DNA of 39,066 nt. Origin: an uncultured Flavobacteriales bacterium. GTDB taxonomy: Bacteria > Bacteroidota > Bacteroidia > Flavobacteriales_D > Crocinitomicaceae. The stretch covers positions 1-39,066 of the forward strand of contig CAJXMN010000016.1 of assembly GCA_913056215.1 (NCBI GenBank). The letters run 5' to 3'. Below are positions 9,054 through 39,066 of this stretch, piece by piece. Both the position numbers and the translations under genes were made by a program. The notes below the pieces were generated by a model. It had not been told where the DNA came from. It saw nothing but the letters and a program-made list of their open reading frames with translations, and searched no databases. Numbering within the stretch: position 1 is the stretch's first letter; every line of letters starts with the position of its first letter.

Positions 9054-9703
9054 TGGAAAGTCGTTCAATTTTGAATAATTTGAAAGCTTACATACGAGAA
9101 GGTGAACATCAGCGACAAGATTTTAAATTTCGCGTAGATGACTCTAAAAAAATTGCACGTACACTGGCTGCCTTCGCGAATACGGATGGCGGTAGATTAC
9201 TTATCGGTGTAAAAGATAATGGTAAGGTAGTTGGCGTGTATCCAGAGGAGGAGTTTCATGTAATTCAGGGAGCTGCAGATATGTTTTGTGATCCTGCCGT
9301 TACTTTTACTTCTGAAGTTTTACAGGACGAACACAAACTGGTGCTGCAAGTGACGGTGCCTAAAGCTGAAAAGCGTCCCGTACGAGCCAAAGATGATCAT
9401 GACAAGTGGAAAACATATGTCCGTCGTGACGATCATACGCTGCTGGCTAATAAGATTTTAGTGCGCGTTTGGAAAAGTCAAGGTAAAGAAGGAGGCAAAC
9501 CGCAGAAGTTTGATGCCGATGAGAAGCTTTTATTAAATACGATTGAAGAATTCGGTAAAATAACACTGAGTAAATTGTATCGCCAAACGAAATTAAAAAA
9601 ATCGTATATTGATAAATTACTGGTGTTGTTTGTATCATGGGGAATTGTTCAAATGGTCATTTCACGAGATGGTACGCATTATTCATTAGCTGAATATCAA
9701 TAA
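9053..9703 (+). CDS. AlbA_2 / Schlafen-like putative DNA-binding protein
   Basis: Up to 216 residues. The N-terminal half is an AlbA_2 (divergent AAA-4, Schlafen-like) domain: EGEHQRQDFKFRVDDSKKI, then LAAFANTDGGRLLIGVKDNG and VVGVYPEEEF. The C-terminal part (KFDADEKLLLNTIEEFGKIT onward) looks like a winged-helix domain. Such proteins are usually annotated as nucleic-acid-binding regulators; the target is unknown. GTG 9053 gives the longest frame. If the promoter at 9022-9053 is real, TTG 9071 (MNNLKAYIREGEHQ) is the better start, and it also fits the usual spacing to GEHQ. The gene sits between aroE and an oligopeptidase gene with no functional link visible. Confidence 0.8.
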   Translation: MESRSILNNLKAYIREGEHQRQDFKFRVDDSKKIARTLAAFANTDGGRLLIGVKDNGKVVGVYPEEEFHVIQGAADMFCDPAVTFTSEVLQDEHKLVLQVTVPKAEKRPVRAKDDHDKWKTYVRRDDHTLLANKILVRVWKSQGKEGGKPQKFDADEKLLLNTIEEFGKITLSKLYRQTKLKKSYIDKLLVLFVSWGIVQMVISRDGTHYSLAEYQ

Positions 9704-34215: not shown

Positions 34216-36408
34216 TTATAGATTATTCAACGTGTATTTGAGCATCATTTGGTATAGGTGATTTCGCGTATTTCCACCATAAATACCATGGTCTTTATTA
34301 GGGTATATGAATGAATCAAATTCTTTGTCAGCTTTTACTAAGGCTTTGGTCATTTCCATTGTGTTTTGGACGTGTACATTATCATCTCCGGAACCATGGA
34401 TAATGAAATAATTGCTTTTGAGTTTCTTGACGTGATTAATTGGTGAGTTGGTGTCGTATCCCTCAGCATTTTCCTGTGGTGTTCGCATAAATCGTTCCGT
34501 ATAGATATTGTCATAATAGCGCCAGTTAGTAACCGGTGCAACTGCAATCCCCATTTTAAATACATCGGCTCCTTTAGTCATAGCTAATGATGCCATGTAA
34601 CCACCATAACTCCATCCCATAACACCAATGCGTGTACTGTCAATGAAGGGTTTACGCCCCAAGTGTTTTGCTACATGAATTAAGTCTTCTGTTTCGTACT
34701 TTCCAAGCTGTAAATAAGTACTTTTTTTAAAGGTAGCCCCTCTATACATTGTACCTCGCGTGTCGACACTTACTACGATATACCCCTTTTGTGCGAGCAG
34801 TTGGTGATAAGCAAAGTTTCCACTGCCGTATTTATCTTCGACCATATTAGATCCGGGGCCACAATATACATGGAAGTAGAGCGGGTACTTTTTAGTCGAA
34901 TCAAATTTCGGTGGTTTGATCATCCATGCGTTGAGATCGTATTGAGCACCAGGAACTTTAAAAAAGGTTTTGGGTTGAAAGTTATATTGTTGTAAAGCCA
35001 TATTTAAATACTCGTTGTCCTCGAGTATTTCTATTAAGGTGCCATCAGCCTTGTGTAGAGAGAATACGGCCGGCGTATTGGCATTGCTCCAGCGATTAAC
35101 GAAATATTTCATACCTTTTGAAAATGTGGCGTCATTGGTACCTTTATTGTCGCTGATTTTTATTTTGTCTGAACCATCTAACTGAATAGAATAGAGTGCT
35201 TTGTATGGAGCTCCTTCTTCCGCCGAAATATAATAGATGGTTTCCGTTTCCTCATTGATGCCTTTAAATTCAACCACGTCCCAGTCACCATCGGTGATTT
35301 GTTGCTGTGACCCGTCGATTCCAATTTTGTAGATATGGTTGTAACCATCCTTTTCACTCGTGCGAATAAAATGCGCACCATCCTTCAAAAAGTAAAGGTT
35401 GTCGTCAATTTCGACATAGGCATCGTCTTGTTCTTCATAAATTACTTCCGATTTTAGTTTCCTCTGATCGACGTCAATCCAATGATATTTTAAATGATTT
35501 TGATGACGGTTGAGGGTAAGGGCCATGAGTTTATTTTTCACATTCGAATATTTAATGCGTGGAATGTATTCGTAATCACCAATATCTACTTTGCGTTTTT
35601 TTCCGTTTTTGACGCGAGCCACATATAGGCACACTTTTGAATTATCTTCTCCAGCTTTGGGGTACTTGAAGGTGTAAGGACTGGGATATAGTGCGTTGTA
35701 ATACATCATGGTGAATTCCTTGACGTCAGATTCATTGAACTTTAAAAAAGCGATGTGTTCACTGTTGGGAGACCATTCATATGCTTTTGTGTAAGCGAAC
35801 TCTTCTTCGTATACCCAGTCTGTGGTTCCATTAATGATGTTATTCATTTCGCCATCTTCTGTGATCGCTTTAATTTTACCAGAGGATATCGTTTTAACGT
35901 ATAAATTGTTTTGATGGATGAAGGCGACTTTTTTTCCATCAGGAGAGTATGAAGCTAGCGTTTGAGGACTCAATTCTGGTGCAAGCGGACTTAATTCTTC
36001 TGTTTCCCGGTCAAATAAAAAATACTCAGCGAAAAAACTACGACGGTAACGTTTCTGCCGGTTAGTGGTCAACAAAATTTTTGATTCATCGTCGTTGAAT
36101 TCATAACCATCCACTTGAAGGGCTTCATCTTTATAATCAAGTAGTGTTCCATCAAGTAGCAATTCACCCATCTCGTCCATGGCTGTGAACGCGTATTTCA
36201 TAATTGATTTGCGTCCGTTAATTTGCGTAAAGCGGGTAAAGTGTTCTCCGTCATTCATAGAACGAAAACCGCTCACCTTACTTCCGTAAAATTCGTATTC
36301 TTTCCAGATTTTTTCGACAGTAATCGAGTCCTTTTTGTTGTTTAACTGACCAAATACGAAAAGGGTTGTGAACATTAGAAAAACTGTGAGTGATATCGCT
36401 TTATTCAT
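34216..36408 (-). CDS. Dipeptidyl-peptidase IV-like S9B peptidase
   Basis: 730 residues from ATG 36408; ATG 36417 would add three. A signal peptide (AISLTVFLMFTTLFVFGQ) sends it to the periplasm. DPP4 removes N-terminal X-Pro (or X-Ala) dipeptides. The Glu-Glu motif that holds the substrate amino terminus is present in TDWVYEEEFAYTKAYEWSP. The hydrolase domain shows VYCGPGSNMV, IGVMGWSYGGYMASLAMTKG with Ser600, HGSGDDNVHVQNT with Asp, and YPNKDHGIYGGN with His. All residues needed for activity are present. With the DPP7-like S46 enzyme it would complete a periplasmic dipeptide-producing set. It has a 293-bp divergent gap to the next gene. Confidence 0.94.
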   Translation of the reverse strand: MNKAISLTVFLMFTTLFVFGQLNNKKDSITVEKIWKEYEFYGSKVSGFRSMNDGEHFTRFTQINGRKSIMKYAFTAMDEMGELLLDGTLLDYKDEALQVDGYEFNDDESKILLTTNRQKRYRRSFFAEYFLFDRETEELSPLAPELSPQTLASYSPDGKKVAFIHQNNLYVKTISSGKIKAITEDGEMNNIINGTTDWVYEEEFAYTKAYEWSPNSEHIAFLKFNESDVKEFTMMYYNALYPSPYTFKYPKAGEDNSKVCLYVARVKNGKKRKVDIGDYEYIPRIKYSNVKNKLMALTLNRHQNHLKYHWIDVDQRKLKSEVIYEEQDDAYVEIDDNLYFLKDGAHFIRTSEKDGYNHIYKIGIDGSQQQITDGDWDVVEFKGINEETETIYYISAEEGAPYKALYSIQLDGSDKIKISDNKGTNDATFSKGMKYFVNRWSNANTPAVFSLHKADGTLIEILEDNEYLNMALQQYNFQPKTFFKVPGAQYDLNAWMIKPPKFDSTKKYPLYFHVYCGPGSNMVEDKYGSGNFAYHQLLAQKGYIVVSVDTRGTMYRGATFKKSTYLQLGKYETEDLIHVAKHLGRKPFIDSTRIGVMGWSYGGYMASLAMTKGADVFKMGIAVAPVTNWRYYDNIYTERFMRTPQENAEGYDTNSPINHVKKLKSNYFIIHGSGDDNVHVQNTMEMTKALVKADKEFDSFIYPNKDHGIYGGNTRNHLYQMMLKYTLNNL

Positions 36409-36515
36409 GAGAATCATTTGTTTTTAGAGCGAATATATAAAGAAAAAAAGGATTTATTCTGTACTGTTTTTAACGATAAAACAACAATTGTTAATAATTC
36501 AATAATACGGAGTCG

Positions 36516-36554
36516 CACAAAATGACTTAATTTTGCAATGAAAATCATTTTGTG
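36516..36554. promoter_or_regulatory. 10-bp inverted repeat in divergent intergenic region
   Basis: CACAAAATGA (36516-36525) and TCATTTTGTG (36545-36554) are perfect inverted copies with a 19-bp spacer. They lie between the divergent DPP4 and lamin-tail genes, about 110 bp upstream of ATG 36408 on its strand. It could be an operator for a dimeric regulator or an RNA hairpin. I saw no exact TANNTTTG box for either gene. Confidence 0.4.
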
Positions 36555-36710
36555 TTCACCTTGACGAGTAATGCACTCTGAAACCACAAAAAGATACAAA
36601 ACAAAAGCATGAAGAACTGTTAGAAATAGTGAACTTTAAATGTCTGTTAGGGCTAGCGTGATTTATCTTTTGGTGATCGAATATGTAAAAAAATCAATAA
36701 TTATAATAGT

Positions 36711-37754
36711 ATGAAACAATTATTACTTTCAGTAGGATTGTTGCTAGGTGCAACGATTAATGCTCAAGAATGTTCCGAGTTGTTTATCTCAGAGTATGTC
36801 GAAGGATGGTCCAACAATAAAGCGGTTGAGATTTATAACCCAACAGGTCAGTCTATTGATCTGAGTAACTATTTAATTCAACGTTATTCCAATGGAAGTA
36901 CCTCTGCTACTACGCAAAATTCGGTACAATTGACAGGTACTATTGAGGCCTATGATGTTCACGTAGCTGTGATCGATAAGAGAGACCCTGCCGGGACAGG
37001 TCAAGAAGCCCCCGTTTGGGACTCACTTCAGGCGCGAGCGGATGAGTTTTATTGTCCGGATTATGGTGTGTCAAATGCGCTTTATCACAATGGGAATGAT
37101 GCTATAATGTTGTCCAAAGGATCGTTGAACGATTTGAATAATGTTGAAGTCATTGACGTATTTGGAAAGATTGGGGAAGATCCCGATAATGGAAACTGTA
37201 ATACCAACGACTATTCAACGTGCGGATGGACGACAGAAGATCCATATGTTGCACCAGCAGGAGAGGTGGTAACAACAGATCATTCATTAATACGTAAATC
37301 TACGATCCAAGAAGGTATTTCTGATTTGAGTGCTGTTTTCAGTAATCCGTTCAATCCATTGCAGGATTGGGATTCTATTCCTCCTGTCATTCCTATGGTT
37401 GATTCCAATGGAGATACCGTTTATCAGCAAGATGGTGTAACGCCACGCATTGAAGGAAACTGGAAGTCTTTGGGATCACACGAATGTGATTGTAATGCAA
37501 ACAGTTTAAATACGGCTGCTTTGGTGAGCGTTAGCATTCATCCGAACCCATCTAATGACGGGGTGTTCGAATTTGCAGGAGAACAAACGATTACGCAAGC
37601 GGTTGTTTATACCACACTTGGTGAAGTTGTTCTTGAGAAGAAGAGTGTTCAAGGTATATCTTCCCTTAAAATAACTCCTAATAGCGGTGTTTATCTCGTG
37701 AAGATTCGCACTGCTAAAGGAGGAGTCACAACGAAACGTGTCGTGATCAATTAA
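36711..37754 (+). CDS. Secreted lamin-tail-domain protein with T9SS sorting domain
   Basis: 347 residues. A signal peptide (LLLSVGLLLGATINAQ) is followed by a lamin tail domain, residues about 20-150 (LFISEYVEGWSNNKAVEIYN, QSIDLSNYLIQRY, NGNDAIMLSKGS, VIDVFGKIGED). A Cys-containing acidic middle follows, and the C-terminal sorting domain begins around residue 275 (VSIHPNPSNDGVFEF to VYLVKIRTAKGGVTTKRVVI). It is predicted to be exported by the type IX system. Lamin-tail proteins in Bacteroidota often lie beside TonB receptors or secreted nucleases and phosphatases, and here a TonB receptor follows. Its role is inferred to be extracellular binding; no enzyme motif is seen. Confidence 0.9.
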   Translation: MKQLLLSVGLLLGATINAQECSELFISEYVEGWSNNKAVEIYNPTGQSIDLSNYLIQRYSNGSTSATTQNSVQLTGTIEAYDVHVAVIDKRDPAGTGQEAPVWDSLQARADEFYCPDYGVSNALYHNGNDAIMLSKGSLNDLNNVEVIDVFGKIGEDPDNGNCNTNDYSTCGWTTEDPYVAPAGEVVTTDHSLIRKSTIQEGISDLSAVFSNPFNPLQDWDSIPPVIPMVDSNGDTVYQQDGVTPRIEGNWKSLGSHECDCNANSLNTAALVSVSIHPNPSNDGVFEFAGEQTITQAVVYTTLGEVVLEKKSVQGISSLKITPNSGVYLVKIRTAKGGVTTKRVVIN

Positions 37755-37772
37755 TTAAATATTATAAACAAC

Positions 37773-37797
37773 GGGGAGCAAAGGCTCCCCTTTTTTT
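37773..37797 (+). terminator. Terminator hairpin just before the TonB receptor start
   Basis: GGGGAGC (37773-37779) and GCTCCCC (37784-37790) pair perfectly around AAAG and are followed by seven T (37791-37797). The T run ends 5 bases before ATG 37803, so the hairpin either terminates most transcripts from the lamin-tail gene or hides the translation start of the receptor. Confidence 0.85.
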
Positions 37798-37802
37798 CTA
37801 CT

Positions 37803-39066
37803 ATGTCAGTCATTAATAAAATATTTCTGCTGTTTTTAACAGGGATCTCATTTTTGGGGAGTGCTCAGCAAGGAACACTTCAAGGAAAGGTTGTTGATTT
37901 AGCTACAGATGAGCCAGTTATAGGTGCTTATGTCTATATATCTGATGAATTTCGCTCCAAAGCAAAATTAGATGGTACCTACAAGATTAGCGGCATTCCT
38001 TATGGGGAATATGTAGTCAAAGTTTCGATGTTCTCCTATGATACCATTGAAGTGAATGTCAAAATCGATCAACCCATAGTTAATAAAGATCTGTCCATGG
38101 GTAGTACCCAGGAAATGGAAGAGGTTCAAGTGATCGGTCAGTTGGCTGTTGATCGCCAAACCCCAGTTGCGGTGAGTACAGTTTCTGCTCGGGAAATTGA
38201 TGAAGAGCTGGGGTCTCAAGATCTTCCGATGATTCTCAATTCAACCCCTGGTGTTCACGCTACACAACAGGGTGGAGGAGATGGTGATGCTCGCATCAGT
38301 ATACGCGGTTTTAGTCAGCGAAATGTGGGTGTGATGATCGATGGTGTTCCCGTTAACGATATGGAAAATGGCTGGGTATATTGGAGTAATTGGTTTGGTT
38401 TGGATCAAATCACCAGTCAGATCCAGGTTCAGCGTGGTCTTGGTGCCACTAAACTAGCGATGCCATCAGTTGGAGGAACAATGAACATTATAACCCAACC
38501 CACAGGTGGCGAGCGTATGATCAAGGTTAATCAAGAATATGGAACGGGTAATTTTCTGCGCACCTCTTTTTCCTATAAATCGGGGAAATTAAAAAACGGT
38601 TGGGGTGTACTATTTTCAGGTTCTTACAAACAAGGAGATGGATGGGTTGATGGACTCTACACGCGCGGTGCTTTTTATTATTTGAAGGTTCAAAAGCGCG
38701 CTGGAAAACATCTGTTATCTTTCACGGCGTTTGGTGCGCCTCAAGAACATGCGCAACGATCCTTTAAACAGTCTATCGCATACTGGGATTCAGACTTCGC
38801 AAGAGATTTGGGTGTTCCCGTCAATCAAAATGAATCGAATATTGATAACGGAATTCGTCACAATCAACATTTCGGTTATCAAACCATGCCGAACGGAGAA
38901 GAGGAAGTTCGTGCCGGACGAAGAAATTTTTATCACAAACCACAATTGACATTGAAAGATTTTTGGCGGGTAAATGATAAGTTTTCTATTTCAAATATGG
39001 CCTATATGTCAATTGGGCGAGGTGGTGGAGAACGCCTACGTAACACGGGCGCCATTATTCGGGATG
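37803..39066 (+). CDS. TonB-dependent outer-membrane receptor, N-terminal part (truncated by window edge)
   Basis: The open frame from ATG 37803 runs to the end of the window without a stop, giving 421 residues. In order: signal peptide (KIFLLFLTGISFLGSAQQ); a CarboxypepD_reg-like domain, about 22-105 (LQGKVVDLATDEPVIGAYVY, SKAKLDGTYKISGIPYGEY); a plug domain, about 115-235 (TPVAVSTVSAREIDEELGSQ, ILNSTPGVHATQQGGGDG, ISIRGFSQRNVGVMIDGVPV, LGATKLAMPSVGGTMNIIT); then the first barrel strands (FSYKSGKLKNGWGVLFSGSY). It would import a ligand such as a siderophore, glycan or peptide using TonB energy. The ligand cannot be told. It lacks any evident promoter of its own and follows a terminator hairpin directly. 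Confidence 0.92.
   Translation, partial: MSVINKIFLLFLTGISFLGSAQQGTLQGKVVDLATDEPVIGAYVYISDEFRSKAKLDGTYKISGIPYGEYVVKVSMFSYDTIEVNVKIDQPIVNKDLSMGSTQEMEEVQVIGQLAVDRQTPVAVSTVSAREIDEELGSQDLPMILNSTPGVHATQQGGGDGDARISIRGFSQRNVGVMIDGVPVNDMENGWVYWSNWFGLDQITSQIQVQRGLGATKLAMPSVGGTMNIITQPTGGERMIKVNQEYGTGNFLRTSFSYKSGKLKNGWGVLFSGSYKQGDGWVDGLYTRGAFYYLKVQKRAGKHLLSFTAFGAPQEHAQRSFKQSIAYWDSDFARDLGVPVNQNESNIDNGIRHNQHFGYQTMPNGEEEVRAGRRNFYHKPQLTLKDFWRVNDKFSISNMAYMSIGRGGGERLRNTGAIIRD

Follow-up and report, generated by a model that had tools for sequence, protein, structure and literature searches.

A hairpin with a T tract in front of a TonB-dependent receptor gene is probably a real but partial intrinsic terminator, which lies between genes 1 and 2 of a four-gene operon and would set the ratio of the gene 1 product, a secreted lamin-tail-domain protein, to the products of genes 2-4. 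RNA polymerase would start at a promoter before the lamin-tail gene. A fraction of the polymerases would stop at the hairpin and leave a short lamin-tail mRNA, and the remaining ones would read through into the genes of the receptor, a secreted endonuclease I and a 5'-nucleotidase-domain protein. The secreted lamin-tail protein would then be in excess over the receptor and the enzymes. We favour this reading because of the operon order, the conservation of the hairpin, the absence of hairpins at the next two junctions, the enrichment of a promoter box only before gene 1 and the hairpin of one family (f13), which lies inside the receptor gene and has to be crossed. The termination efficiency at the junction could be near 0 or near 100%.

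The window, i.e., the whole stretch of 39,066 nucleotides that was analysed, is the complete contig C16 of a 3.2-Mb genome (G000) in 192 contigs, and its closest named relatives are Brumimicrobium, Fluviicola and other Crocinitomicaceae. The features concerned are as follows.

36664..36672, + strand: TATCTTTTG, imperfect TAnnTTTG -7 box whose spacer has one extra base, a weak candidate for the operon promoter (from the sequence)
36711..37754, + strand: gene 1, lamin-tail-domain protein of 347 aa with a signal peptide and a T9SS type A sorting tail (ORF; Pfam LTD 5.5e-14, Por_Secre_tail 1.3e-7)
37773-37779, + strand: 5' arm of the lamin-tail/receptor junction stem, GGGGAGC (from the sequence)
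37780-37783, + strand: loop, AAAG (from the sequence)
37784-37790, + strand: 3' arm of the stem, GCTCCCC (from the sequence)
37791-37797, + strand: T7 tract, completing the putative intrinsic terminator (from the sequence)
37798-37802, + strand: five-base spacer CTACT, with A at -3 of the receptor ATG (from the sequence)
37803..39066, + strand: gene 2, TonB-dependent receptor (CarbopepD_reg_2 and Plug), cut by the contig end (ORF, Pfam)

The junction hairpin

The stem begins 18 nt after the lamin-tail stop codon (TAA, 37752-37754) and consists of seven pairs, six of them G-C, with a folding energy of -13.6 kcal/mol. Together with the T7 tract it occupies positions 37773-37797, and five bases separate the end of the tract from the receptor ATG at 37803. 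These positions agree exactly with the original prediction of a 7-bp GC-rich hairpin and seven T ending five bases before the ATG, and the arrangement, a GC-rich stem with a T tract directly after it, is that of an intrinsic terminator. The hairpin with its T tail is far above chance. Seven hairpins of at least this kind of strength and with a T-rich tail were found on both strands of the window, representing five distinct stems (two of them, including the junction hairpin, were counted on both strands), compared with a mean of 0.3 and a maximum of 2 in 20 dinucleotide shuffles of the window. A looser scan found seven hairpins against 6.6 expected, so that weak matches in the window are attributable to chance. 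The fold of the whole segment 37745-37860 gave a z-score of only -1.27, and the search of 36400-38100 against Rfam returned no family near its gathering score, all matches being far below. In 439 kb of the same genome, a hairpin was located 0-40 nt before the start codon at 3 of 227 co-directional junctions, one of them with a T-poor tail; the window junction is absent from this count since the contig ends within the receptor frame.

Operon organisation and promoters

The comparison comprised 111 lamin-tail loci, namely the window (L001) and two sets of relatives with 30 loci (including the window a second time) and 80 loci. Many of these represent the same genome twice; 91 junctions were left after identical ones had been removed. 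The lamin-tail gene is followed by a receptor gene of the same orientation in 109 of the 111 loci, the other two (L037 and L101) ending too early, and the hairpin is therefore situated between co-directional genes of one conserved operon. Its order is lamin-tail protein, TonB receptor, T9SS-secreted endonuclease I-domain protein and 5'-nucleotidase C-terminal-domain protein. Where the downstream DNA exceeds 5.6 kb (61 loci), the endonuclease I gene was present in all loci and the nucleotidase domain in 56. Two side observations concern this locus. The assembly of the window genome is broken inside the receptor gene (end of C16) and inside the nuclease gene, whose parts stand at the ends of contigs C174 and C140. 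Furthermore, in the window (36711-39066) and in L042 (6001-12831), a hairpin-bearing locus of Brumimicrobium oceani, the four-gene set adjoins divergent genes for a DPP-IV-like peptidase and citrate synthase.

Hairpins were also sought at the two following junctions, from the stop codon to 15 nt past the start projected by homology, as gene starts in the relatives were. None was detected at the receptor-nuclease junction (0/67; four starts were projected too far upstream, and these junctions are hairpin-free by gene calls too) or at the nuclease-nucleotidase junction (0/56; that of L078 was left out). Hairpins with a poor T tail occur after the nuclease stop codon, near or within the first nucleotidase codons, in L049, L050, L051, L056, L057 and L063; where checked, they lie within about 60 nt of the stop, and the 15-nt scan stopped short of them, so that hairpins within the reading frame may occur at the later junctions. 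They were rejected as junction terminators, as they are inside the nucleotidase frame by homology (checked in L049, L050, L051 and L056) and the called start is too late. Likewise, the first downstream "gap" of L056 is a receptor frame broken in two.

The sigma-A box of Bacteroidota is reported as TAnnTTTG (PMC6847099, PMC9723704). Within 160 nt before gene 1 it was found in 13 of 42 hairpin loci, a modest enrichment over shuffles (mean 4.9, maximum 12) among related loci that are not independent. No box was found in the same distance before the receptor in these 42 loci. In the 49 other loci, with L039 counted here, the box was present before gene 1 in 42 (shuffles 8.1) and before the receptor in 5 (shuffles 3.5). 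A stretch inside gene 1 also exceeded the shuffles (19/91 vs 5.2), and the enrichment alone is thus no proof of a promoter. In the window, strict TAnnTTTG is absent before gene 1; only the imperfect box TATCTTTTG is present about 40 nt upstream of the lamin-tail ATG. On the sequence evidence, the distribution of the box favours a single promoter before gene 1.

In a rival arrangement, the hairpin would terminate the gene 1 message completely, and genes 2-4 would have a promoter of their own, placed in the 3' end of the lamin-tail gene or overlapping the hairpin. The strong stem with its T7, the AT-rich stretch upstream of the stem and the similar appearance of the closest gene-end terminators of the clade would fit such an arrangement, and leaderless mRNAs exist, making up 5.5% in Flavobacterium psychrophilum as reported in PMC9723704. 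However, read-through would be needed even from a promoter upstream of the hairpin, and one inside the T tract would yield an almost leaderless message. Moreover, the lack of TAnnTTTG before the receptor (a scan for the sigma-A motif only) lies below the shuffle mean of 4.2, some relatives without the hairpin have 0-1 nt between stop and start, and family f13 has its hairpin within the receptor gene itself. We therefore regard a separate promoter as unlikely. The original prediction that the junction leaves no room for a promoter holds downstream of the hairpin; it was overstated for the 3' end of the lamin-tail gene, where a promoter may lie even though the scan for the sigma-A motif revealed none.

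Conservation of the hairpin among relatives

A hairpin with a T-rich tail was present in 43 of the 91 distinct junctions (42 by the first criterion, and L039, added with a larger loop). It begins at a median of 15 nt after the lamin-tail stop and ends at a median of 20 nt (range 8-30) before the receptor start. The stem letters differ between lineages; these 43 hairpins were selected for their pairing, which therefore cannot serve as a test on its own. In most of them the stem is followed by a T tract. An alignment of the genus junctions with MAFFT misplaced the stems and was left out of the counting, and an apparent weakness of the junction stems relative to reference terminators (median -13.8 vs -16.3) was dropped, as the A/T pairs of the T tract were not handled alike in both sets. 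A T-G wobble with T in the 5' arm and G in the 3' arm is kept in the stems of L026, L031, L079, L093, L111, L117 and others, and it would weaken the hairpin when read on the opposite strand.

With one gene caller and one criterion (hairpin 0-30 nt before the start, 81 sequences), the hairpin was found at 25 of 67 lamin-tail/receptor junctions vs 4 of 214 other co-directional junctions, bearing in mind the non-independence of relatives. In a quickly built tree of the lamin-tail proteins, the presence of the hairpin changed eight times, at least six of the changes being forced by well-supported branches, vs about 30 in shuffles. The hairpin is clade-stable, and the lineages without it mostly have closely packed genes: the estimated gap was at most 31 nt in 43 of the 48 hairpin-less junctions, a dozen of them with 0-1 nt, which makes one transcript likely there. 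Wider gaps were noted for L038, L040, L106, L107 and L118. The first of these belongs to G008, the ninth congener, which is without the hairpin and has a gap of 112 nt. The hairpin is hence dispensable, given this congener and the eight changes on the tree. When the initial 120 nt of the receptor were scanned as well, only one weak hairpin was added among the 48 hairpin-less loci.

The original prediction was that receptor expression depends on read-through out of the lamin-tail gene, the proportion of the two products being set by the hairpin. This is supported circumstantially by the conserved operon order, the touching or close genes of the hairpin-less relatives, the box enriched only before gene 1, the two hairpin-free junctions that follow and the need to cross the hairpin in family f13. 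Partial termination is a category of its own in the F. psychrophilum transcript map, with 67 of 1511 regions, as given in PMC9723704.

The hairpin inside the receptor codons

The survey was extended to other families and genera of the order, with 19 additional junctions. In five of these, a hairpin was located between the stop and start codons; one of the five overlaps a start that is doubtful. Scanning to 130 nt past the stop codon raised the count to 12 of 19 (the T tail of L187 is poor and the start of L194 uncertain), compared with 8 of 269 control stretches within receptor genes. In family f13 (L204-L209, one locus from each genome; L210, a second copy, was left out) the hairpin and a T6 tract are within the signal-peptide codons of the receptor, about codons 7-18 and about 34-77 nt past the lamin-tail stop codon, in all six loci analysed. 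A hairpin that matched or exceeded the native strength arose in 0 of 400 synonymous reshuffles for five loci and in 1 of 400 for the sixth, and the paired letters vary on both arms (CTATCTCTG/CAGGGATAG in L204, CTATTCCTG/CAGGAATAG in L206). To judge from these sequences, the f13 hairpin is the strongest sign of selected RNA structure at the lamin-tail/receptor boundary. Since it lies inside the receptor frame, any full receptor mRNA of this family must cross it.

The same location would suit a translation-coupled valve, in which ribosomes at the receptor start, or a trans-acting factor such as NusG or a paralogue, set the passage of polymerase to the receptor, nuclease and nucleotidase genes. 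We hold this to be very unlikely, also as the reason why the hairpin is kept across Flavobacteriales where the lamin-tail and receptor genes meet, be it just upstream of the receptor start or in the first receptor codons. The f13 result makes both the partial terminator and the valve slightly more probable and a separate promoter slightly less so.

A conditional attenuator was also considered: when the cell needs nucleic acid or phosphate, termination would be relieved by a ligand, by a protein or through the state of translation. The genes of the operon suggest nutrient scavenging, and nucleases of Flavobacterium johnsoniae with LTD and endonuclease I domains are reported to be induced in the absence of phosphate (PMC8115612). 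In addition, translating ribosomes would melt the f13 hairpin in the receptor codons, and two NusG-domain proteins are encoded in each of the 10 genomes of the window genus. Against this, the stem comes after a complete gene and not in a leader, no Rfam family matched at the junction, and alternative pairing of the arms did not exceed that of shuffles. When pairing of either arm with the 150 nt upstream was evaluated in 42 loci, the mean z-scores were -0.17, -0.14 and -0.17, and 4, 2 and 4 loci fell below -2, among them the 3' arm of the window at -2.6. The antitermination event proposed originally as a conditional switch thus found no support in the arm pairing or in Rfam, and an attenuator of this kind seems improbable to us.

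The receptor start codon

The original prediction took ATG 37803 as the true receptor start. It is the first ATG, GTG or TTG of the receptor frame in the window, and starting there gives the signal peptide MSVINKIFLLFLTGISFLGSAQ (judged by eye). However, the orthologues of eight congeneric hairpin loci (L012-L019) begin slightly downstream, at non-ATG codons in all cases (GTG in seven, TTG in one), 18-25 nt beyond the stem. In the tblastn alignment these starts map to codon 3 of the window protein in seven loci and to codon 4 in L012. Codon 3 of the window receptor is GTC, and the window ATG is about two codons upstream of the congener starts and 12 nt after the stem. The downstream start that had been named as contrary evidence therefore occurs in part, with the hairpin kept: the five-base spacing is a local extreme of the window, and the hairpin itself is not local.

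The further remark that the receptor lacks a normal leader becomes irrelevant if its message comes from upstream; the median leader of F. psychrophilum is 24 nt according to PMC9723704. In Flavobacterium, messages tend to be unpaired near the start codon, and A at -3 favours initiation in F. johnsoniae, as described in PMC6847099. A hairpin within 20 nt of the ATG may therefore dampen translation of the receptor too, and the A at -3 in the window would help its initiation.

Comparison with known systems and probable role

The closest parallel to partial termination at this junction is found in the ABC-importer operons of cellulolytic Clostridia, in which, as PMC9045158 reports, a stem-loop and U tract stand directly after the first gene and before the genes of the membrane transporter, and the first product, the binding protein, is made in excess. 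Termination at these stem-loops ranged from 20.7 to 96.1%, and the two tested ones with long U tails exceeded 90%; by this measure, the T7 tract of the window predicts little receptor. In contrast to the Clostridia, the operon studied here belongs to another phylum and serves a TonB receptor, its hairpin is 12 nt before the start codon or, in f13, inside the receptor codons, and termination was measured there and is predicted here from the sequence. Stoichiometry set by a terminator is already established for the Clostridia importers. If the reading is true, the principle extends from ABC importers to the TonB-receptor uptake operons of this phylum. The lineages would also offer a natural experiment, as sister groups carry the same operon with a terminator before the receptor, with one in the signal-peptide codons or with touching genes, as in L023 and L027.

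The combination of a TonB receptor, a surface or secreted protein and degradative enzymes resembles the SusC/SusD loci of Bacteroidota (see also PMC8115612); unlike in those loci, the partner is a lamin-tail T9SS protein instead of SusD, and the enzymes are a nuclease and a nucleotidase. The lamin-tail protein weakly resembles the N-terminal part of the nuclease ExeM, far below the cut-off. Judging from the encoded domains, the operon likely serves the use of external DNA or nucleotides, i.e., scavenging, and the four-gene set is a candidate operon for this function. Our literature search for the set of lamin-tail, receptor, endonuclease I and nucleotidase genes found no paper.

Similar stems elsewhere in the genomes

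In 12 genomes, the pattern AGGTCG...CGRCCT followed by T was found at 0 to 5 sites each. Outside the lamin-tail/receptor junction it has 25 matches, 20 of which were examined: a called gene ends 18-49 nt before the stem in 18 of them, an opposite-strand gene follows in 9, and one (L177) is 23 nt before a co-directional start. These stems look like ordinary gene-end terminators. A junction-specific role of the AGGTCG and GGGGAG stems had been suggested by the presence of GGTCG in 18 of 43 junction stems vs 0 of 83 neighbouring terminators; the idea was rejected because the 83 reference terminators represent the same few orthologous gene ends and AGGTCG is found at ordinary gene ends genome-wide.

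The gene-end stems also bear on the view that the junction hairpin terminates nothing and serves mainly to stabilise the lamin-tail mRNA or to mark its 3' end once a full-length operon transcript has been cleaved. Such a role would likewise explain a hairpin at the first junction, and selective RNA processing is described for other systems (PMC10667835, PMC10311766), yet the T tract after most stems is not needed for stability alone, and the same sequence is used at gene ends, 9 of 20 before an opposite-strand gene. We see little likelihood in processing without termination.

The GGGGAG stem with a T tail was detected in 9 of the 10 genomes of the window genus. Apart from the lamin-tail junction, a pattern search located it just before the tRNA-Trp gene of the tuf-trnW-secE-nusG cluster in 6 of the 10 genomes and at two further sites in G009; tuf and SecE were checked with Pfam in the window genome only. 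The tuf/trnW junction is similar to that of the partial terminator proposed here in that the GGGGAG...CTCCCC hairpin with its T tract follows the stop codon of the preceding gene at a distance of 20-23 nt, with a few bases left before the next gene; it differs in that the genes are housekeeping genes and the next one is a tRNA gene. In the window genome this hairpin (L148, G000:C6:1-20000) is at about 9397-9424 on the minus strand between tuf and tRNA-Trp, with secE following, and its T tract ends two bases before the tRNA-Trp identified by ARAGORN.
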